This document shows positions 4,711-47,208 of a stretch of DNA of 64,000 nt, one piece after another. This DNA is from an uncultured Mycoplasmatota bacterium (GTDB lineage: Bacteria; Bacillota_I; Bacilli_A; RF39; UBA660). A model generated the notes under the pieces. The model had not been told where the DNA came from and made no database searches. It worked only from the letters and a program-made list of their open reading frames with translations. Both the position numbers and the translations under genes were made by a program. Numbering within the stretch: position 1 is the stretch's first letter; each line of letters begins with the position of its first letter. Location: positions 62,001 to 126,000 of the forward strand of contig CAMJBC010000003.1 in NCBI GenBank assembly GCA_946403755.1, read 5' to 3'.

Positions 4711-7700
4711 ATGCAAACAGTAAATTTTGAAAAATTTAAAACTATGGTACCATCTCAAACATATGATTATGTTTATAGATTGTTAAGATATTTAGATGAT
4801 AATAGTAGTATAGATATTTCAGGTAGATATATATATGAAGAAGATGATAAAGTATTATTTAGAGCTTTAAAAACATATCAATTAACACCAGAGGGTAAAG
4901 CATTATTAAGTAGTGTTGGCTTTACAGATGAACATTATATTAATGATGAAATTTATTCATTTGATAAAGCTTTTGCTAAGTATTATAAATATATTATGCC
5001 TTTTGAAAAGGAAGAAGAATATTTAGCATTAACACCAGAAGATATTATACTTAGAGTTCTTTCATTTAATGATAGTGATTCTAGAACTATGGGTATGATA
5101 AGAGTAAAACCAAGAACTTTTATAAATAAACTAGCTGCTGCTAGAGAAGAAAAAATAGAAGAAATAATTGAAGCTTATGAAAATCAATATTATACTAAAT
5201 GTACTATTTCATTAGTTAATTATTTTAATACTGTTAGTAAAATATATAATTATTTAGATCCTAGAAGAGAATATATTAAAAATATTAAACCTACTGATGA
5301 AAATTTAAAAGCAATTTCTTATTTATTAGGATTATTCTATTATGATAATGTTGCTTATGGAAAAGATTTATTTGATGAAAAACAAGCTATTTTAGATTAC
5401 TTAAAAAATCTTGGTATTACTTCTGAAAAGATAGAAGAAGCTATCGGTATTGATTTAAGTAAGGCAGATGCAAATCCATCAATATTAACACTTAAATCTA
5501 ATTTAGATATTGATATAGTTAATAGAGTATCTAGTAATGATTTAACTGTAGGTGGAATATTTTATAACGTAGTTAATAATGCTTATAAAGATAATCAAAG
5601 TTTTAAATATTTATTTGGATTATTAGGTGTTTCAGGTACTGATGTATTAAAATTTTATAATAATGTAACAACATTAGCAAAAGAATATAATAATGATGAA
5701 TATCAGGAAATATATAAGGGATTATTACCAGAAACAACTAAAATACTTAATAGATTTATTAAGATTTATACATATTTAATAAATGAAAAAAAATTAGATC
5801 GTACTTATGTTACTTCAGCACAAGATTATGTAGCTTTATCAGTATTAATATCAAGCTATATAGATGGCGCTAATGTATCTAAATTCTTATCAAGCAATGG
5901 TTTATCTTTTGTTAAGTTATTAGAAATATTAAATTTACCAGCAATAGATGAATTATTAAAAAATATTGAATCTCAAAAAGTTAATTCAAGATTAGCAACT
6001 AAGTTTAAAAGATATATATATAATGGTTATCCATCTAATAAATCAAAAAATGAAATAACTCCTTCTTTAATGTATAGAAACTTACATGATAAAGATTATT
6101 CTGAATCAACTGTTGTTAATAAATTATTCTATAGTGTTAGTAAATCAATGTTACCAAATGATTTTGATGGTAGAGTTAAAGCACATATTGAGAAAGAAGA
6201 AGAAAGCAAACAATTAGAAATAAGAGAAAGATTATTTAAAGATATAGATATAGAAGTATATAATTATTTGGTAATAGTTTATTCTTACTTTTGTATTTTT
6301 AGAAATAAAGTTGCATCTATTGAAGATGCTAGACAATTAGCAATTATTTATGCAGCATGTAGATATAATGAAAAATTAAATAATTATTTAGAAAGTATTG
6401 GAGTTACAAGACCAAAAATATCAAAATCATTTAATATGGATATTAATTATGAAACTAAAAAATTAGATGTTGAAGAATTAGAAAGAGAATTTGGTAAATA
6501 TGTTTTTGATAGAGACCCAGATAAAATATCAGTTTATTCAATATTTGAAAATGCTTTTGTACCAGAATTAACTAATTCAGTTAGATTGAGACAAGCATTA
6601 CATGAAATGGGAAAAGAACCAGAAGATTTCTTAGGCATTGAAAAACAATTAGAAAATTATGACAAAGAATTAGCAGAAAAACAAAAACAAGAAGAAATTA
6701 AAAAAGTATTTTCTAAATTAACTAAAAGTGCTGTACAAACTAATAGAAGTGTATTAGTTTTATATGATTTTTTAAGAACAAAAGTTAAAGGTAATGAATA
6801 TTTAACATGTGATAAAGATTGTAAAGAAATGGCTTTAATAATAGTTAATCTAATGCCAGATAATAATCATGCTAAATACTTTGAAATGTATGGTATTACT
6901 TTAGAATATGTTTTATCTTTAATTGGTTTAGAACCAAGTGATATTAGTTTAATATTAAAAAATAAATGTAATGATGAATTAATAAATGAATTTAAAACAT
7001 ATTTTGGGCAAGCTTCAACTGTTAGTGTTGATAGTTATGCTCACTATGCTATAAATAGTGATTTAATCAAAAAAATAGCTAAAGACTTAGATATTAGTTA
7101 TGATCAATTAAGTGAATCAGTATTAAAAGAGAAGAAAAGAATATTATCACCTAAAGAAGAACTAAGTAAACTAAATGAAGAGGTAGTTCCTCCAGTTGAT
7201 AAAAGTAGTTTTTCTTCACTTGCTAGATATGGTGATAGTTTATCTAGTCATTCACTTGTAATTAACTCATCTTTAAGTAGTTTAATGAATAGTGGTTCAA
7301 TTAGTACATCAGTTAAGAGAATAAATGATGCTCTTGATAGTTTAGTAATAGTTGAAAAAGAAGAACCTAAAAAATTAGGCTTTTGGGAAAGTATGTTTGC
7401 TTTACCTGAACCACCAAAAGTTACTAAAAAATATGATTATACAAAAATAGGTGAACTACAAGAAGCTATTGATAGTCAATTAGAAGTATTATCTTCTGAA
7501 TTAAGTGATTTTGAATATATTAGAACTAGTTTAGAAGTATTATTACAAAAAACATTAATGCAATTAGAGAAACTAAGAAAAGTTGCTGAAGAACCTATGC
7601 CAGAACAAAAACAAACAAATGATGATTATACATTCCCAGATACATTAAATAGAAATACTAGAAAAACTCTTTTAGAGAATAAAATAAGTGCTTTAGAAAC

Positions 7701-27527: not shown

Positions 27528-27558
27528 AAAAATACTTTTTTTTGAAGTATTTTTTTTA
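27526..27558 (+). terminator. Terminator after uppS
   Basis: AAAAATACTT/AAGTATTTTT stem (27528-27537 with 27545-27554) with a T-rich loop and T tail. The TATAAT of the next gene lies at 27559-27564, immediately after. Confidence 0.75.
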
Positions 27559-27580
27559 TATAATTATACTAGGTGATAGT

Positions 27581-30500
27581 ATGAAGAAGATTATATCTTA
27601 CCTAATAGTACTTATTATGTTAGTACCTTGTATAGTACTAGCAGATTATAAATATGCTGATGGAGTAATTAAAACAGATACATATATTTTTACATATAGT
27701 GACTATGCAAGATATATAAAAATAAGAGAAGGTATACCATATGGATTTAATAATGGAGCAGCTGTTTCAGCTACTAGTTTTAAATTTGGTGGATTTATAA
27801 CAAGACCAGAATATGATATAACAAACTCTGGGCCATCAGTATCATGGTTAGCACCTGGAATAGAGTATTGGTTAATTGGAAAGGATAAACTAGATACTAA
27901 AATAAGTACAGGAACAGATGAAGATAAATCAGGAGTAAGAATAACAGAATATGTTCTTCATAATACAAAAGTAAAAGGAACAGGCACAATAACAGATCCA
28001 TGGACATTTAGAGATGGATATAATGTTACAGTAGGAGTAACAGATAAAACAATAGGACAAATATCACCAGAACATGGATATGAACATGTAGAAACATCAG
28101 AAGGAGCAAAAGAGTTCATATTAACATATGATAATAAATATGAAATAGATGCCAAAGCATGTGAAAATGAAGCTTCATCAACAGGAGCAACATTTAGTAT
28201 AGTTAATGGATCAAGTTCAAATACTAAAAAGATAACAATTAATAATATATCTAAAGATTTCTCATGTTTTATTAACTTTGGTACAAATTGTTATGCAATA
28301 ACATTAAATAATAATAGTGGAACAACAACAAATGGACTTCATAACAAAACAATATATTACCAATATGGAAAAGGATGGTTTGATGATAATATATGTAAAA
28401 CACCATTATCATTAACAATAACTTCTCCAACAAGAGTAGGATATAATTATCAAGGTTATAAATATAAAATAAATGCAAATGAATATGGAAAATTAATAAT
28501 AAATACATCAAATAAAATAGTTCCAGGGGTAAAAGACTCAGATGTTCAAACTGATACAGCATACGCTCATTGGATTCCAATCGAATATAATATTACATAT
28601 GATTATAATAATGGAGCTGGAGCTAGTGGTGGAAGTTATCCAAGTAAAGGAACTTATGATAAAGTAATAGAAGTAACACCGCCAACAAGAACAGGATATA
28701 CATTTGCAGGATGGACAGCAACAGATTTAACAACAAGTACAGCAAAATACGGAACAACAAATAATCCATCAACAGCATGGAATGGAACAACAAAAGTAAC
28801 ATCAAGATACTTTAAGAATTTAAGAAGCACTGCCGGAACTGTTAAATTAACTGCTAATTGGACAGCTAATACTTATATTGTTGCTTATGAATTAAATGGT
28901 GGATCATATGGAACAAATCATCCGACTACTGGAACATATGACACTGCATTCACAGTAAATAATCCAACTAAAACAGGATATACATTTACAGGATGGAAGA
29001 TAACAGGAATGGATAGTGTAACACATACATATGGAAGTAATACTACAACAAACACATCAATAGATAGTACGAAAGAAACATCATTTAAGAATTTAAGAAG
29101 TACATCGGGAACAGTAACATTTACTGCACTATGGTCAGCTAATACTTATACAGTTGCATATACATTAAATAGTGGAACAGCTGGAACTAATAAACCAGAA
29201 AGTGGAACATATGATTCAGTTCTTACAATAGATAATCCAACAAGAACAGGATATACGTTTGCAGGATGGACAGCTGCTAATCTAACGACAAGTACAGCAA
29301 AATATGGAACAACAAATAATCCAGCAACAGCATGGTCAAATGGATCAACAAAAGTTACAGCAAAGTACTTTAAAAACCTAAGAAGTACATCAGGAACAGT
29401 AACATTAACAGCAAACTGGAATATTAACAAATATACAATTTCATATAATTTAGATGGCGGATCATATGGAACAAACCATCCAACTGAAGGAACATATAAT
29501 TCTGCATTTACAGTAAATAATCCAACAAAGACAGGATACACATTTACAGGATGGAAGATAACAGGAATGGATAGTATAACACATACATATGGAAGTAGTA
29601 CAACAACAAGTACATCAATAAGTAGTACAAAAGCAACGTCATTTAAGAACTTAAGAGCTACACCAGGAACAGTAACATTTACTGCACTATGGTCAGCTAA
29701 TACTTATACGCTTGCTTATACATTAAATAGTGGAACAGCTGGAACTAATAAACCAACAAGTGGAACATATGATTCAGTTCTTACAATAGATAATCCAACA
29801 AGAACAGGATATACGTTTGCAGGATGGACAGCTGCTAATCTAACAACTAGTACAGCAAAATATGGAACGACAAATAATCCAGCAACTGCATGGTCAAATG
29901 GATCAACGAAAGTAACAGCAAAGTACTTTAAGAATTTAAGAAGTACTTCTGGAACAGTAACATTAACAGCAAGCTGGACAGCTAATACTTATACAGTTAC
30001 ATATAATTTAAATGGTGGATCATATGGAACAAATCATCCGACATCAGCAACATATGATAGTGCATTCACAGTAAATAAACCAACAAAAACAGGATATACA
30101 TTTGCAGGATGGAATATAACAGGAATGGATAGTGTAACACATACATATGGAAGTAGTACAACAACAAATACATCAATAAATGGTACTACTGCAACATCAT
30201 TTAAGAATCTAAGAGGTACATCAGGAACAGTAACATTTACAGCCCAATGGACAGCCAATACATATACAATTTCATATTCATTAGGTGGTGGATCATATGG
30301 AACAAATCATCCTACAACAGGAACATATGATAGTGCATTCACAGTAAATAATCCAACTCGAACAAATTATATATTTACAGGCTGGAAAATAACAGGAATG
30401 GATAGCGTAACACATACATATGGAAGTAGTACAACAACAAGTACATCAATAAGTAGTACAAAAGCAACGTCATTTAAGAATTTAAGAAGTACATCAGGAA

Positions 30501-30823
30501 CAGTAACATTTACAGCACAATGGGTTGATAGATGTAGTAGTGTAACAACCACTTATGGTAGTTGGGGATCATATGGATCATGCTCGGCATCATGTGGTGG
30601 AGGTACACAATATAGATATAGATCATGGTCAAAAACTTCAAATTATGATGGTGGAAGTTGTGGTACTGGAACTGAATCACAAAGTAGAAGTTGTAATACA
30701 CAATCATGCTGTACACCACAACAAGTAATACCATGGCAATGTTGTACATCTGCTTGTCAATGGTATTGTTGTCCATCTGGTAGTAACTTACACAGTGATG
30801 GTACATGTTGGTATGAATGTTAA
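27581..30823 (+). CDS. Secreted surface protein: InlB-type repeats with a C-terminal thrombospondin type-1 domain
   Basis: The 1080-aa exported protein starts MKKIISYLIVLIMLVPCIVLA, a signal peptide; ATG 27581 follows AGGTGAT. After a unique N-terminal region (to about 330) come seven beta-grasp repeats of the InlB B-repeat (Listeria-Bacteroides) type, each with GTYDS..TVNNPT.TGYTF.GW and ending FKNLRSTSGTVTFTA.W. A thrombospondin type-1-like domain follows at about 992-1040: GSWGSYGSCSASCGGG, an Arg-rich RYRSW strand, then paired cysteines CGTG...RSC..QSC. The last 40 residues are Cys-rich (CC motifs). There is no LPXTG or terminal membrane anchor, so it may be released or held by disulfides. 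Likely role: adhesion; this is inference. Confidence 0.75.
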   Translation: MKKIISYLIVLIMLVPCIVLADYKYADGVIKTDTYIFTYSDYARYIKIREGIPYGFNNGAAVSATSFKFGGFITRPEYDITNSGPSVSWLAPGIEYWLIGKDKLDTKISTGTDEDKSGVRITEYVLHNTKVKGTGTITDPWTFRDGYNVTVGVTDKTIGQISPEHGYEHVETSEGAKEFILTYDNKYEIDAKACENEASSTGATFSIVNGSSSNTKKITINNISKDFSCFINFGTNCYAITLNNNSGTTTNGLHNKTIYYQYGKGWFDDNICKTPLSLTITSPTRVGYNYQGYKYKINANEYGKLIINTSNKIVPGVKDSDVQTDTAYAHWIPIEYNITYDYNNGAGASGGSYPSKGTYDKVIEVTPPTRTGYTFAGWTATDLTTSTAKYGTTNNPSTAWNGTTKVTSRYFKNLRSTAGTVKLTANWTANTYIVAYELNGGSYGTNHPTTGTYDTAFTVNNPTKTGYTFTGWKITGMDSVTHTYGSNTTTNTSIDSTKETSFKNLRSTSGTVTFTALWSANTYTVAYTLNSGTAGTNKPESGTYDSVLTIDNPTRTGYTFAGWTAANLTTSTAKYGTTNNPATAWSNGSTKVTAKYFKNLRSTSGTVTLTANWNINKYTISYNLDGGSYGTNHPTEGTYNSAFTVNNPTKTGYTFTGWKITGMDSITHTYGSSTTTSTSISSTKATSFKNLRATPGTVTFTALWSANTYTLAYTLNSGTAGTNKPTSGTYDSVLTIDNPTRTGYTFAGWTAANLTTSTAKYGTTNNPATAWSNGSTKVTAKYFKNLRSTSGTVTLTASWTANTYTVTYNLNGGSYGTNHPTSATYDSAFTVNKPTKTGYTFAGWNITGMDSVTHTYGSSTTTNTSINGTTATSFKNLRGTSGTVTFTAQWTANTYTISYSLGGGSYGTNHPTTGTYDSAFTVNNPTRTNYIFTGWKITGMDSVTHTYGSSTTTSTSISSTKATSFKNLRSTSGTVTFTAQWVDRCSSVTTTYGSWGSYGSCSASCGGGTQYRYRSWSKTSNYDGGSCGTGTESQSRSCNTQSCCTPQQVIPWQCCTSACQWYCCPSGSNLHSDGTCWYEC
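28570..30528 (+). repeat. Tandem array of seven InlB-type repeat units in two alternating forms
   Basis: Units start about every 272-288 bp and follow the order B-A-B-A-B-A-A. Type B carries TAANLTTSTAKYGTTNNP; type A carries ITGMDSVTHTYGSSTTT. The A-B dimer (about 555 bp) is the higher-order period. Blocks near 29146-29420 and 29686-29960 are almost identical in DNA, pointing to recent duplication or gene conversion. Confidence 0.85.
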
Positions 30824-39702: not shown

Positions 39703-40782
39703 ATGAAAAGAGTAGGAAATTCATTTAAAGGAATTTTTGGTGGAGTTATTGCTATTGTAATAGGAGTTATCTTATTATGGTGGAATGAAGGAAACAATGT
39801 TAGAAATATTAAATCTACTGCAGAAATGGAGAAGATTTATGTAGATGTTAAAAGTGATGCAATTGATCCTAATAATGAAGGAAAATTAATAGCAACATCT
39901 GGTAAACTTGTTAATGAAGAAGAATTAACTGATTCAACTTTTGGAGTAACTATTAAAACTCCATATATGAGAAGAATAGTAGAGGTTTATCAATGGGAAG
40001 AAGATAGTGATACTGATGAAGATGGAGATACAACTTATACTTATAAGAAAAAATGGTCTTCTGATATAATCAATTCTACTAGTTTCCATCAATCTGGTCA
40101 TGATAATCCTTTACAAAAACCATATCAAGATGAAATGTATTATTCTAGTAAAGTAACATTAGGTGCTTTTACATTATCATCTAATCAAGTACAAAGTTTA
40201 AGTACTAATGGTAACTATAATAGTTATGATGTTAATAAAATAACTGAACTAAATTTATATGTTTCTGGTAATTATATAACTTCATCTACTGATTTAAATA
40301 ATCCAAAGATAGGTGATACTAGAATATCATTTGTATATAATAATTCTACTGATATTAGTATTCTTGCTGTTCAACAAGGTGAAACTTTTGTAGATTTTGT
40401 TTCTAAAGAAGGAGTATCTACTAATAGAGTAATGGATGGTGTTCATTCTGGTATTGAAATGATTAACATCATTAAACAAGAAAATAACATGTTAAAATGG
40501 ATTTTAAGAGCAGCAGGTATAATATTACTATTTATGGGATTTGCAACTATTTTGAAGCCTATAAGTGCTATTACAAGCTATGTTCCAATATTAGGAAATT
40601 TAGTTGGTTCAGCAGTAGGAATAGTATCATTTGTACTAGGATTAATTCTTGGATTACTTGTAATAACTATTGCATGGATAAGATTTAGACCAGTGCTGGG
40701 TATTTGCTTATTAGTAGTAATTGCGGTTTTAATAGCATTCTTAATTATAAGAGGAAAAAAATCTAAACAAATAAGTGAATAA
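39703..40782 (+). CDS. TMEM43-family membrane protein
   Basis: The 359-aa protein begins with one transmembrane helix (about 10-27, GGVIAIVIGVILLWWNEG). The sequence WWNEGNNVRN followed by DPNNEGKLIATSGKL, FGVTIKTPYMRRIVEVYQW and a C-terminal block of three or four helices (about 260-350) matches the TMEM43/LUMA family pattern. In animals TMEM43 is an inner nuclear membrane protein; bacterial relatives are of unknown function. The long middle domain would be extracytoplasmic. It has its own promoter and terminator, so neighbours give no clue. Confidence 0.72.
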   Translation: MKRVGNSFKGIFGGVIAIVIGVILLWWNEGNNVRNIKSTAEMEKIYVDVKSDAIDPNNEGKLIATSGKLVNEEELTDSTFGVTIKTPYMRRIVEVYQWEEDSDTDEDGDTTYTYKKKWSSDIINSTSFHQSGHDNPLQKPYQDEMYYSSKVTLGAFTLSSNQVQSLSTNGNYNSYDVNKITELNLYVSGNYITSSTDLNNPKIGDTRISFVYNNSTDISILAVQQGETFVDFVSKEGVSTNRVMDGVHSGIEMINIIKQENNMLKWILRAAGIILLFMGFATILKPISAITSYVPILGNLVGSAVGIVSFVLGLILGLLVITIAWIRFRPVLGICLLVVIAVLIAFLIIRGKKSKQISE

Positions 40783-43075: not shown

Positions 43076-45136
43076 GTGAAAAGACTTAAAAATATTTTAA
43101 TTATTTTTATTTGTTTTTTAATGTTATGTAGTTTTACTGATGATGAAACTGCTCCTTTAGAATACGTTCAGTCTTTTGATCAAATAAATAGTTATGTTGG
43201 TTATACATCTGCTTATCCTACTAGTTATGATAGTAGAGTAGCAATTGATACATTCAATAATCAAGCAAATGAAAATCAAAAAAATTTAAATATATGTTGG
43301 GCATTCGCATCTAATAATGTTTTAGAAGCATATATGAAAAAAGTAAAATCATATACTGTTAATTATTCTGAAAATCAACCTGAATATGTTGCTAGATATT
43401 TAGGAGATATTTCTAGTTTTGGAAATGCTAATAATACTTTTAATGTAGTAAAGTATTTATTTTATAATATAACACCTATTGATGAAACAACATTTGATCC
43501 TAGTGGTTATTTTACTTCTTATAAAGAGAAAGAATTAAAATCATATATGTCTACATCAGCTGTTGGTATTGATGTTCAAAAATTAAAATTATTTAATCAA
43601 TATCCTATACAAGAATTATTAAATGGAAGTTATACTGAAACACAAATATATGATAATATTGCTAAATATAATGAAAAAGTAAAAGAATATGTTTATAAAT
43701 ATGGCTCTGTTATGGGTATTATTCATACTGATTTTATGACAAAAACATATGATGGATCATATGGTTGGTGCTATAACAATGGTTCTAAAGCTGAAAGCGA
43801 ATATAAAAGTAGTGCCCATGCTATTACAATAATTGGTTGGGATGATAATTATGTATGGCAAGGTAGTAATCCCGCACCATATAAAGGAGCTTGGTTAGCT
43901 GCTAACTCTTGGGGAACAGGTACAACATTCTTCTATATATCATATTTTGATGTATCAATAGTTAGAGGTTTTTTAGGAGTATCAAGTATTAATATTAATA
44001 ATAATTCTTTGCTATATAACAATAGTTATTTAGTAGCAGAATCAGCTAAATTTGCAAACTCATATAAAGATAATAGAGATAAGTATTATACAAGAACAAA
44101 CACTTCAAATACTACTGAATCATTTACTTATTATATTGGAGATAATACAGAAAAATTAGTATCAGCAAAACTATTATTCTTTGGATTTAGTAATTCACAA
44201 GAAGCAATAAATAATTTACAAGTTAAAATAGAAGTGGTTGGTCCAGATGATTCAACATTTAATACAACAACTATAGAACCAGGAATAACTGGATTTAGTT
44301 TAAGAGGTATTAATTTAAGTGGAACTATTAAAGTAAATGTAACTATTACAAATCCAACTAATTTAAAAATATCTAATATGTATTATGCAGTTGAATTATA
44401 TACTAAGAATTCTAATACATCAAAAACTTTATATATTAATAGTACGAATAGTTCATATAATAATTTAGTTAATAGTAACACTCAATTTAATGTAGTAACT
44501 AAAAATATTGAAACTACACCTAAATCAAATATAACTGTTAAAGTGTTAGATTCAAGTTCTAATGATATAACAAGTAAATTTAATATTACTAAATCTGATT
44601 TAGTATTTAATAGTATATCGTTAAACTTATTACAAAAAGAAACATTATCAACAAGTAGTATTACGCTTAAAGTAACAGCGGGAGGAGTAACAAGCAGTAA
44701 AACATTATCATCATCTTCTCCAAATTATAGTTTTAATAATTATAGTGTTGATGAAACAAATAAAATAGTTAAATATATTTCACCTAAAACAACCGTTTCA
44801 ACTTTAATTTCTAATGTAAATGGAGGAGTTAAAACAGTAACAGATAAAAATGGAAATGTTCTTTCTGAATCAACTTATGTAAACACAGGAAACAAGTTAA
44901 AAATAGTTGTAAATAATAATACATATATATATGATTTATCTGTACTTGGTAATGTAAATTCAGATAATAATATAGATATAAATGATGTTATGAAAGTCGC
45001 AACACATTCAATAAAAGGTGGCAAGTTGACAACTCAATTAGAATTATATTCAGCAGATGTCACAAAAGATGGTAAAATTAATATAAACGATGTTATGAAA
45101 ATAGCAACCTATTCAATAAAAGGGGTGGGATTATGA
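43076..45136 (+). CDS. Secreted papain-like (C1A) cysteine protease with C-terminal dockerin
   Basis: The 686-aa protein starts at GTG 43076 (AGGTGA upstream) with signal peptide MKRLKNILIIFICFLMLCSF. The catalytic domain has the papain set: oxyanion Q68, nucleophile C74 (NICWAFASN), H248 (SAHAITIIGWDD) and N277 (ANSWGTG). A beta-rich region (about 310-620) follows. The last 63 residues are a type I dockerin: two 22-residue Ca-binding repeats, GNVNSDNNIDINDVMKVATH and ADVTKDGKININDVMKIATY, with N/D at 1, 3, 5 and D at 12. Dockerins bind cohesins, and the overlapping next gene (ATGA) encodes a cohesin-like membrane protein. Role: surface-docked proteolysis, by inference. Confidence 0.88.
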   Translation: MKRLKNILIIFICFLMLCSFTDDETAPLEYVQSFDQINSYVGYTSAYPTSYDSRVAIDTFNNQANENQKNLNICWAFASNNVLEAYMKKVKSYTVNYSENQPEYVARYLGDISSFGNANNTFNVVKYLFYNITPIDETTFDPSGYFTSYKEKELKSYMSTSAVGIDVQKLKLFNQYPIQELLNGSYTETQIYDNIAKYNEKVKEYVYKYGSVMGIIHTDFMTKTYDGSYGWCYNNGSKAESEYKSSAHAITIIGWDDNYVWQGSNPAPYKGAWLAANSWGTGTTFFYISYFDVSIVRGFLGVSSININNNSLLYNNSYLVAESAKFANSYKDNRDKYYTRTNTSNTTESFTYYIGDNTEKLVSAKLLFFGFSNSQEAINNLQVKIEVVGPDDSTFNTTTIEPGITGFSLRGINLSGTIKVNVTITNPTNLKISNMYYAVELYTKNSNTSKTLYINSTNSSYNNLVNSNTQFNVVTKNIETTPKSNITVKVLDSSSNDITSKFNITKSDLVFNSISLNLLQKETLSTSSITLKVTAGGVTSSKTLSSSSPNYSFNNYSVDETNKIVKYISPKTTVSTLISNVNGGVKTVTDKNGNVLSESTYVNTGNKLKIVVNNNTYIYDLSVLGNVNSDNNIDINDVMKVATHSIKGGKLTTQLELYSADVTKDGKININDVMKIATYSIKGVGL

Positions 45137-47208
45137 TAAAAAAATTATTATTTATTTTCATATTTAGTATTTTAATAATACCAAATATTATTTTAGCAAG
45201 CACATTTTCTGTTAATATGAGTTGTCCTAATGCTGCAAGTGCAGGAGAAAAGATAACTTGCAAAATAACAGCTAATGTAGATGCAGATATAAATGAAATT
45301 AAAGGTAATTTTTCAAATGAAGGACTTGGTAGTTTAACATTTGATAAAAATAATAAACTTAATTTTACTCAAGCAGATTCTAATGGATTTAGAATAAGTG
45401 AAGAAGGTAGTATTCTTTCTAAAACTGGTAGTAATAGTTTTGAAATAGGTACTGTAAATGCTACTATACCAGGTAATGCTACCGAAGGTAATTCATTTAA
45501 AATAACAATAAATAGCATTACAGCTAATGGTAATTTAACTTATGCAACAATAACATCTAATATACATATTAAATCAAGTGATAATACCTTAAAAAGTTTA
45601 AGTGTAGGTAATTATCCATTATCACCTGTATTTAATAGTTCTACAACATCTTATAAAGTACAAGCAGAAGATGTTCCTAAAGTTAATATTACTGCTGTTG
45701 CTAATAATAGTGGAGCAACTATTAGTGGGGCAGGAGATGTTAATTTAAAATATGGAGATAATACTATAAATGTAGTTGTTAAGAGTGAAACAGGGGCAAC
45801 TAAAACTTATAAAATAGTAATTAATAGATTTGATTCAAGAGATAAAACAAATACTTTAAATAACCTTGTTGTAGCAGGTTATGATTTGGATAAAGCATTC
45901 TCACCAGAAACAACCAAATATAAAGTAACTGTTGAATCAAATGTTACTTCTGTAAAAATAAATGCTGAGTTAACTCCATCAGAAGAAAAACAAAAAATAA
46001 TGTCTACTTTTGTTAAAAAGTATGGACCTAGAACTCAAAAACTTAATTATGGAGATAACAATGTTCAAATAAGAGTAAGAGCTGAAAATGAGAAAGTTAG
46101 AACTTATACTTTAATAATACATAGAATTGATGATAGAGATCCTAATAATTATCTAAAATCACTTGAAATAAGTAGTGGTAAATATAAATTTGATAAAGAA
46201 ATAGGACAATATATTATAAATGTAGAAAACAATGTAAGCGTAGTTAGTATTAAAGCTATAGCTGAAAGTGAAAAAGCTAAAGTAGATTCAGTAAGTAAAT
46301 TAGAATTAAAAGAAGGTAGTAATAAAATTACTATTAAAGTAACAGCAGAAAATGAAAAAGAAAGAAAATATGTTATTACTATTAATAGATTAAAAGAAGG
46401 TACAACTATTGAAGAAGTTGAAAATATTGTATATTTAAAACAATTAAAAGTTTTAAATAAAAATATCAGTTTTAATCAAAAAACAACTACTTATGAAATA
46501 CCTATTACTGATGAAAGTGAAGTAACATTTACATATGAATTATATGAAGGTACAACTGGTACTATTGAATTAAAAGATGATGAAACTGGACCAATAAAAC
46601 TTTCTAGTGAGAAGAGTGATATAACTATTTCTCCAGTAATAGATGGATCAATAATATATCTAAATCTTATGTCACCTGAAGGATATACAAGACAATTCAC
46701 ATTTAATGTTAAAACAGCTGATTATTATATTGGTGATATAGAAATTCCAATAGAAAAAGATCCACTTGTTATAAAATGGACTTGGCAATTAATAGTGGCT
46801 TTAGTTTCTATATTAATAATATTGGTAGAACTTGGTTTTGCAATTTACTTTGCTATTAAGAATGGTGGAGTAGAAAATAAGAGACGTCAAACTGAAGAAT
46901 CTATTAAATCAGGAATTGATGATATAAAGAAAATACCAGAAAAGAATGAACAAAGAAAATTACAAAGAGCTGAAGCAGCTAAATTAAAGAAAGCCGAAAA
47001 AGAAAGACTTGCTGAAGAAAAGAAAAAAGCTAAAGAAGAATGGAAAAAACAAAGAGAATTAGATAAGATTCAAAGAGAACAAAATAAGATATTAGAAAAG
47101 CAAGCTAAAGAGATGGAAAAGAAAATAGATGAAGAAAAGAAACGTATTGCTGCAGAGGCAGCTAAGTCTCAAAAAGAATATGAAAAGTCTATAGAAAAAC
47201 CTCAATAA
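45133..47208 (+). CDS. Membrane-anchored protein: cohesin-like domain, cadherin-like beta-sandwich repeats, TM helix, cytoplasmic coiled coil
   Basis: The 691-aa protein starts with signal peptide MIKKLLFIFIFSILIIPNIILA. Residues about 23-150 form a beta domain with cohesin features: paired strands with AGEKITCKITANVDADINEIKG, then GLGSLTFD and NSFEIGTVNATIP. Four cadherin-like beta-sandwich repeats follow (about 152-540), each with (N/Y)(T/Y)L..L.V....L...F......Y.V and ending Y.I.I.R. One transmembrane helix (about 550-575) leads to a 110-residue Lys/Glu coiled coil inside the cell. Overlap with the dockerin-protease gene (ATGA) implies co-translation and a shared complex. The cohesin call is by eye and context. 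Confidence 0.75.
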   Translation: MIKKLLFIFIFSILIIPNIILASTFSVNMSCPNAASAGEKITCKITANVDADINEIKGNFSNEGLGSLTFDKNNKLNFTQADSNGFRISEEGSILSKTGSNSFEIGTVNATIPGNATEGNSFKITINSITANGNLTYATITSNIHIKSSDNTLKSLSVGNYPLSPVFNSSTTSYKVQAEDVPKVNITAVANNSGATISGAGDVNLKYGDNTINVVVKSETGATKTYKIVINRFDSRDKTNTLNNLVVAGYDLDKAFSPETTKYKVTVESNVTSVKINAELTPSEEKQKIMSTFVKKYGPRTQKLNYGDNNVQIRVRAENEKVRTYTLIIHRIDDRDPNNYLKSLEISSGKYKFDKEIGQYIINVENNVSVVSIKAIAESEKAKVDSVSKLELKEGSNKITIKVTAENEKERKYVITINRLKEGTTIEEVENIVYLKQLKVLNKNISFNQKTTTYEIPITDESEVTFTYELYEGTTGTIELKDDETGPIKLSSEKSDITISPVIDGSIIYLNLMSPEGYTRQFTFNVKTADYYIGDIEIPIEKDPLVIKWTWQLIVALVSILIILVELGFAIYFAIKNGGVENKRRQTEESIKSGIDDIKKIPEKNEQRKLQRAEAAKLKKAEKERLAEEKKKAKEEWKKQRELDKIQREQNKILEKQAKEMEKKIDEEKKRIAAEAAKSQKEYEKSIEKPQ

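Follow-up and report, generated by a model that had tools for sequence, protein, structure and literature searches.

A dockerin-bearing papain-like protease and a membrane-anchored cohesin protein encoded by overlapping genes: a probable one-enzyme tether in an uncultured Mycoplasmatota bacterium

We analysed a stretch of 64,000 nucleotides (the window) from an uncultured Mycoplasmatota bacterium (GenBank assembly GCA_946403755.1, contig CAMJBC010000003.1, positions 62,001 to 126,000), in which two genes, here called P1 and P2, encode a secreted papain-family cysteine protease that ends in a dockerin and a membrane-anchored protein that begins with a cohesin (Table 1). A first-pass annotation, made from the letters of the DNA, had placed both open reading frames (ORFs) at these positions with a 4-bp overlap, and had proposed that they form a docking pair; the two ORFs and the overlap are confirmed, and from sequence comparisons and structural models we consider it probable that P1 and P2 are a one-enzyme, membrane-anchored dockerin-cohesin tether. 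The pair looks like a single operon, because a likely ribosome-binding site precedes each start (AAGGGG immediately 5' of P2, and another before P1, both found by reading the sequence) and P2 is followed by a hairpin and a run of T. This terminator candidate (CCTCAATAATAATTGAGG-TTTTTT) is absent from the output of the consensus scan and was recognised by reading only, and the promoter-like match upstream of P1 is weak evidence, since such matches occur in this region at a rate near the shuffled background.

Table 1. Features of the P1-P2 locus (positions in the window; residues numbered from each start codon)
Feature	Position	Strand	Description or basis
P1	43076..45136	+	Papain-family (C1A) cysteine protease, secreted, with a dockerin at the C-terminus; 686 aa from a GTG start
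P2	45133..47208	+	Membrane-anchored cohesin protein, 691 aa
ATGA overlap, P1 stop and P2 start	45133..45136	+	Read in the sequence
Promoter-like TTGACT-17-TAGAAT, upstream of P1	43026..43054	+	Consensus scan, 10/12 matches
Likely intrinsic terminator, end of P2	47200..47223	+	Hairpin and T run, by reading
P1 catalytic residue span (Q68, C74, H248, N277)	43277..43906	+	Invariant in papain-dockerin alignment
P1 pre-dockerin beta module (~residues 562-622)	44759..44941	+	Like the module preceding glucosaminidase dockerins
P1 type I dockerin, two Ca-binding repeats (residues 624-682)	44945..45121	+	Pfam and hidden Markov model
P2 signal peptide (residues 1-22)	45133..45198	+	Hydrophobic N-terminus; predicted cleavage after A22
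P2 divergent cohesin, conserved Cys pair C31 and C43 (residues 23-150)	45199..45582	+	Model and profile comparisons
P2 cadherin-like domain 1 (residues 153-232)	45589..45828	+	Pfam PF12733, E 1.6e-9
P2 cadherin-like domain 2 (residues 242-331)	45856..46125	+	Pfam PF12733
P2 cadherin-like domain 3 (~residues 340-425)	46150..46407	+	Third PF12733 stretch; limits approximate
P2 degenerate fourth cadherin-like domain (~residues 434-530)	46432..46722	+	By eye only, no Pfam match
P2 transmembrane helix (~residues 552-572)	46786..46848	+	Hydropathy 2.94 over 19 residues (553-571)
P2 Lys/Glu-rich tail, predicted cytoplasmic, 116 aa	46858..47205	+	37 K/R, 27 D/E

P1 carries the oxyanion Gln and the Cys-His-Asn residues in the motifs that define papain-like C1A peptidases (PF00112): Q68, C74 (in CWAF), H248 and N277 (in NSWG) are unchanged across an alignment of P1 and four other papain-dockerin proteins. 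Pfam did not detect PF00112 in P1 itself; the family is found in its relatives, L041 (syntenic, from genome G014; 6.5e-12) and L049 (from G029; 7.8e-25; G, C and L numbers are our handles for genomes, contigs and loci), so that the papain protease of the first-pass annotation stands. Residues ~553-683 align, with a conserved pattern, to the C-termini of glucosaminidase-dockerin proteins of the genus. The dockerin itself, which had likewise been called as type I, consists of two Ca-binding loop-helix repeats at the protein terminus. It was matched by PF00404 (residues 626-677, E 1.6e-4, 22.2 bits, the cut-off being 22.9; 26.2 bits, above the cut-off, in the genome-level search), and it was the sole match in the window of a hidden Markov model built from other genomes only (E 1e-9). 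Position 1 of its first loop is N in place of D. The dockerin is symmetrical, I10, V13, M14, A17 and T18 being the same in both repeats.

The signal peptide and transmembrane helix claimed for P2 were both recovered, from its hydrophobic N-terminus and hydropathy, and the helix is followed by a tail rich in K and E. Three of the four cadherin-like sandwiches that had been claimed are PF12733 stretches (E 1.2e-29), while the fourth is degenerate and was recognised by eye without support from Pfam. The tail, which the positive-inside rule would place in the cytoplasm, probably forms a coiled coil. Neither an LPxTG motif nor a Pfam match to an SLH domain was found in P2, and none of 64 related anchors carries LPxTG within its last 80 residues; P2 therefore lacks the LPXTG or SLH signals that define the sortase- or SLH-anchored single-cohesin class (ScaE/OlpA type). 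One could suppose instead that P2 is mainly a transmembrane receptor, in which docking of the enzyme is sensed and relayed via the charged tail and anchoring is secondary. P2 has indeed retained a tail of 116 residues; however, the tails of the related anchors vary widely in sequence and in length (4 to 236 residues, some under 10), which makes signalling unlikely as a shared function, and we hold this explanation to be quite improbable.

That the N-terminal domain of P2 is a cohesin is indicated both by a beta-sandwich fold in a structural model and by homology in profile comparisons. In an AlphaFold2 model of residues 23-236 (predicted local distance difference test score, pLDDT, 79, and lower in the first domain), the best Foldseek match is 2w1n, a Clostridium perfringens cohesin construct, and cohesins dominate the top 20 matches; the first domain aligns with cohesins at Z 8.9-9.6 over 112-119 residues (among the top matches, 4uyp_A at Z 9.6 and 2jh2 at Z 9.5, over 112-118 residues). 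A profile search found P2-type domains in 35 of 145 genomes of the window's family, and the Cys pair is kept in 24 of 25 aligned domains. The profile of these 25 sequences matches the cohesins of the sister anchors, those paired with glucosaminidases, at 95% probability (E 3.8e-8), and its best match in the PDB is the archaeal cohesin 2xdh (E 7e-4). With the first eight P2-type domains the hhalign comparison with the sister cohesins was weak (E 0.004), becoming clear only with 25 sequences. Two of the 25 members match the Pfam Cohesin family PF00963, the best at 3.7e-7. Several P2-type domains lie directly 3' of dockerin genes, including that of another papain-dockerin protein in a different genus (L206). 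These results uphold the cohesin-like domain that the first-pass annotation had placed at residues 23-150.

A scan of the genome (1.19 Mb in 13 contigs, 88.6% complete, 5.7% contamination) for further dockerins and cohesins turned up a second pair and a solitary anchor. Two complete dockerins were found, that of P1 and that of a glucosaminidase protein on contig C7 (L005:8640-10880; 746 aa, SH3 domains, dockerin E 2.3e-8), whose catalytic profile matches glucosaminidases such as 6u0o (E 6.7e-25) as well as autolysins. Nine nucleotides downstream of that gene lies an anchor gene (L005:7140-8630) encoding 496 residues with a signal peptide, a cohesin (PF00963, 5.3e-5), a cadherin-like domain, a transmembrane helix and a charged tail. 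The solitary anchor, on contig C5, has 708 residues and shares 42% identity with P2 across 479 of them. The count for this 88.6% complete genome was thus two full dockerins and three anchors with a single cohesin each, and no multi-cohesin scaffoldin was seen, so that the genome does not show the arrangement that defines a cellulosome, in which such a scaffoldin integrates many dockerin enzymes. A weak cohesin match on contig C10 was rejected as chance, since it lies in a region of histidine kinases, and a third dockerin match (C7:24871) was not counted, being half a motif within a 1420-aa protein. Dockerin-like repeats occur in or near clusters of pilin-like and secretion genes: a 337-aa protein with three such repeats (L180:5705-6718, genome G001), a 395-aa type IV pilin-like protein with one (L179:6623-7810, G008) and, in the genome of the window, the 1420-aa protein with half a dockerin motif (L004:4676-8938).

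Pairs of this kind are conserved and widespread among relatives. In genome G014 the papain-dockerin and anchor genes share the neighbours seen in the window (Tex-like and glutamyl-tRNA synthetase-like genes). Dockerins are present in 109 of the 145 genomes of the family, and 28 of the 30 best dockerin loci appear to have, 0-24 nt further on, an anchor-type gene with a signal peptide; the parse of the other two (L060, L075) is not clear. A profile of the sister-anchor cohesins gave 61 strong matches, 58 of which lie 85-148 bp 3' of a dockerin on the same strand, against a chance expectation of ~0.03, and dockerins and cohesins co-occur across genomes (p 1.5e-9). Of the 18 genomes of the genus, the four that encode full-length papain-dockerin proteins are also the four with P2-type cohesins, a coincidence expected once in 3060 if the two were independent; in two of these four (G004, G008) the protease and P2-type genes are unlinked.

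Beyond the family, P2 alone as a query gave no match in a collection of named genome contigs. An alignment of glucosaminidase-dockerin proteins, used as the query, returned 80 loci from gut and rumen Bacilli, 'Tenericutes', Lachnospiraceae and Oscillospiraceae; a dockerin was found in 71 of them, and for 63 of 74 dockerin ORFs on independent contigs the next gene encodes an anchor with signal peptide and transmembrane helix. Similar pairs are present in Clostridia. The commonest cargo is a wall hydrolase with SH3 and glucosaminidase (GH73-type) domains; among the other cargos are NAGPA-type phosphodiester glycosidases, leucine-rich repeat (LRR) proteins and InlB-like proteins. A shortened class of cohesins ('LAGKF') could be aligned to the cohesin profile with a probability of 97.8%. 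Glucosaminidases without a dockerin did not provide a clean negative control, since two of them have an anchor-like next gene (L155:6463-8615 and L156:6756-7009, both Lachnospiraceae-type, with no recognised dockerin on the enzyme). The first-pass annotation had described a one-enzyme system with no carbohydrate enzymes involved. The first part holds for each pair taken singly, and not in the sense of a lone curiosity, since no fewer than two pairs and a solitary anchor are present in this genome, and the same design recurs widely elsewhere; the second holds for P1 and P2 and fails for the system, whose commonest cargo acts on peptidoglycan.

Some further arrangements were seen among these loci. 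At L092:89-1438 a dockerin-ending protein has an N-terminus like the P2-type cohesin, and its gene overlaps by 4 bp the next one, which encodes a P2-type anchor. Proteins of ~330-790 residues with at least three tandem dockerins (G020:C4:102723-103238, G172:C38:239-1156, G113:C62) could cross-link several cohesin anchors. In the draft genome of Roseburia inulinivorans DSM 16841 (L140, ~7100-7300) a dockerin is out of frame with its glucosaminidase, with an anchor downstream, which represents a draft error or a broken gene.

If neighbouring dockerins and cohesins bind one another, their sequences may be expected to change together, and this is what we observed in the glucosaminidase pairs. For 72 such pairs the dockerin distances correlate with the cohesin distances (r 0.64), and the correlation persists once the effects of the catalytic and cadherin-like domains are removed (partial r 0.567; none of 2000 permutations reached this value, the maximum being 0.267), whereas the control comparison of dockerin with cadherin domain gave 0.013. 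The covarying columns are dockerin positions 10, 13, 14, 17 and 18 in both repeats, with none at the Ca ligands. Positions 10, 17 and 18 coincide with published cohesin contacts (10, 11, 17, 18 and 22; the Ca ligands being 1, 3, 5, 9 and 12; PMC6780208). With the covarying columns only, the partial r is 0.73, a figure that is not independent because the columns were picked from the same data. At these recognition positions the residues are I, V, M, A and T in P1, as against I, L, L, R or Q, and K in the C7 dockerin; because the two differ, separate partners are predicted for them, and the two pairs of this genome are probably insulated from each other. The DV[IM]K motif of P1-type dockerins occurs in none of the 72 glucosaminidase dockerins. 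A sister pair, modelled as a read-through of two in-frame genes from the relative L110, was used for folds only. Cohesins make up nearly all of the top 50 structural matches of its cohesin, with Z as high as 13.6, and its dockerin superposes on a solved one at a root mean square deviation of 1.2 Å over 65 residues.

The same data bear on the idea that the N-terminal domain of P2 is a chagasin-like (I42) inhibitor or folding helper of the protease, with a dockerin that binds nothing or senses Ca. An inhibitor gene beside a protease gene is a common arrangement, and 9 of 68 related anchor domains give weak I42 chagasin matches; but P2 itself has none, like anchors also follow glucosaminidase, phosphodiester-glycosidase and LRR proteins, and the covariation maps to a dockerin surface that is not expected to touch a protease inhibitor. 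We regard this idea as highly improbable. A protease-inhibitor function for the nine I42-matching anchors was rejected too, because their cargos are mostly not proteases.

The docking pair proposed at first pass is thus supported by four independent lines: by the fold and homology of the cohesin, by the second pair, by the strict adjacency in relatives and by covariation at recognition positions. Several observations weigh against it. PF00963 gave no match to P2 residues 23-150 alone; we ascribe this to a sensitivity limit, the match not being a defining feature, since half of the anchors in the set have it (34 of 68 N-terminal domains, P2 included among the 68). For the P2 model, beta-sandwiches of alpha-2-macroglobulin and integrin come within ~1 Z of the cohesins, and the model has a poorly predicted loop (model residues 52-72). 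The L110 read-through model has a pLDDT of 92 and a predicted template modelling score (pTM) of only 0.66. The covariation comes from glucosaminidase pairs and not from protease pairs, the genome is an incomplete and partly contaminated metagenome-assembled genome, and the solitary C5 cohesin could be an additional or alternative partner of P1. This last point leads to the alternative that P1 docks mainly elsewhere, for example on the C5 anchor, and that P2 holds a different or additional partner, their adjacency being historical. The cohesins of the C5 anchor and P2 have 37% identity and the Cys pair in common, and the unlinked genes in G004 and G008 imply that partners need not be neighbours. 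On the other hand, just two complete dockerins were seen in the genome, the one on C7 has an adjacent cohesin of its own, and neighbouring dockerins and cohesins covary strongly in the related glucosaminidase pairs. We consider it unlikely that P1 has its main partner elsewhere.

We therefore favour the tether, and propose that P1 and P2 would act as a bicistronic one-to-one docking system whose two products are both exported. The Ca-loaded C-terminal dockerin of P1 would plug into the one cohesin that P2 carries at its tip, while the cadherin-like stalk, transmembrane helix and cytoplasmic tail would keep P2 in the membrane of the producing cell. As a result, the papain-like protease would be displayed on the cell by a non-covalent, sortase-independent tether. 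The stalk of P2 is longer than that of the glucosaminidase anchors (transmembrane helix at residue 553 as compared with ~400) and may place the protease farther out than the wall hydrolase. P1 and P2 would then be one case of a scheme that is widespread in this bacterial family, in which each cargo has its own cognate anchor. More generally, we lean towards the view that membrane-anchored dockerin-cohesin pairs are a general and previously undescribed means of holding individual wall hydrolases, proteases and adhesins in small-genome gut Bacilli and many gut Clostridia, with a recognition code for each pair and dozens of natural orthogonal pairs, including cohesins of ~100 residues.

Elsewhere in the window, a tRNA-Ser (GCT) lies on the minus strand shortly 3' of P2 (47268-47358), a 359-aa protein (39703-40782) strongly matches the TMEM43 family (PF07787, 1.7e-62), and a 1093-aa surface-type protein (27542-30823) has InlB-like repeats and a weak spondin-TSP1 match.

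Among known systems, the C. perfringens cohesins 2w1n, 2jh2 and 2vo8 are the closest folds to the sister-pair model (Z 13.6 to 12.9) and are likewise non-cellulosomal. In C. perfringens the cohesin sits on the secreted glycoside hydrolase itself, so that enzymes join one another, whereas here it is carried by a separate membrane anchor. The glucosaminidase 6u0o, matched by the enzyme of the sister pair, is what we take to be SagB of the SagB-SpdC membrane-held glucosaminidase complex of Staphylococcus aureus, and for the sister-pair enzyme, too, a partner that retains it at the membrane is predicted. Whereas SagB itself contains a transmembrane helix and its partner is polytopic, in the sister pair the hold is predicted to be a dockerin-cohesin plug.

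The closest precedent is found in Ruminococcus flavefaciens, where a dockerin-bearing peptidase (RflaF_05439) binds the single cohesin of the sortase-anchored ScaE (PMC5301203, PMC3573020). In both cases a cysteine peptidase with a symmetrical dockerin and a dual binding mode, for P1 a predicted one, is or would be held directly on the cell via a single-cohesin anchor. However, the R. flavefaciens peptidase is NlpC/P60-like and belongs to a cellulosome system, whereas P1 is papain-like and no scaffoldin was found. ScaE is anchored by sortase through LPXTG and serves several dockerins with no one-to-one adjacency, in contrast to P2, which is a transmembrane protein with a cytoplasmic tail and whose gene overlaps that of one enzyme. 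Outside cellulosomes, cohesins and dockerins have also been recorded from archaea and from other bacteria (Peer 2009, as cited in PMC9012536). These modules (e.g. the Archaeoglobus cohesin 2xdh) resemble the present system in having few dockerins and cohesins, no multi-cohesin scaffoldin and cell-surface cargo; they are described as of unclear purpose, while here we see recurrent adjacent enzyme-anchor pairs with covarying interfaces. In the open-access literature that was searched we found no description of such pairs or of this breadth across gut bacteria. The present system is set apart from these precedents by its transmembrane anchor, by strictly paired genes, by the missing scaffoldin and by how broadly it occurs in uncultured Bacilli and Clostridia of the gut.

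Dockerin-cohesin binding is among the strongest protein-protein interactions known, yet it has been studied almost only in cellulosomes. The pairs make available a large natural set of covarying interfaces for the study and engineering of binding specificity, and tests are feasible because a named isolate record (Pseudoflavonifractor sp. An44, L132) contains an intact pair. The enzyme that they most often carry hydrolyses peptidoglycan, and enzymes of that class need positional control. The pairs suggest a way in which uncultured gut lineages could display enzymes without sortase, and in bacteria with genomes of ~1 Mb the dockerin-cohesin module looks like a routine tether for a single enzyme.

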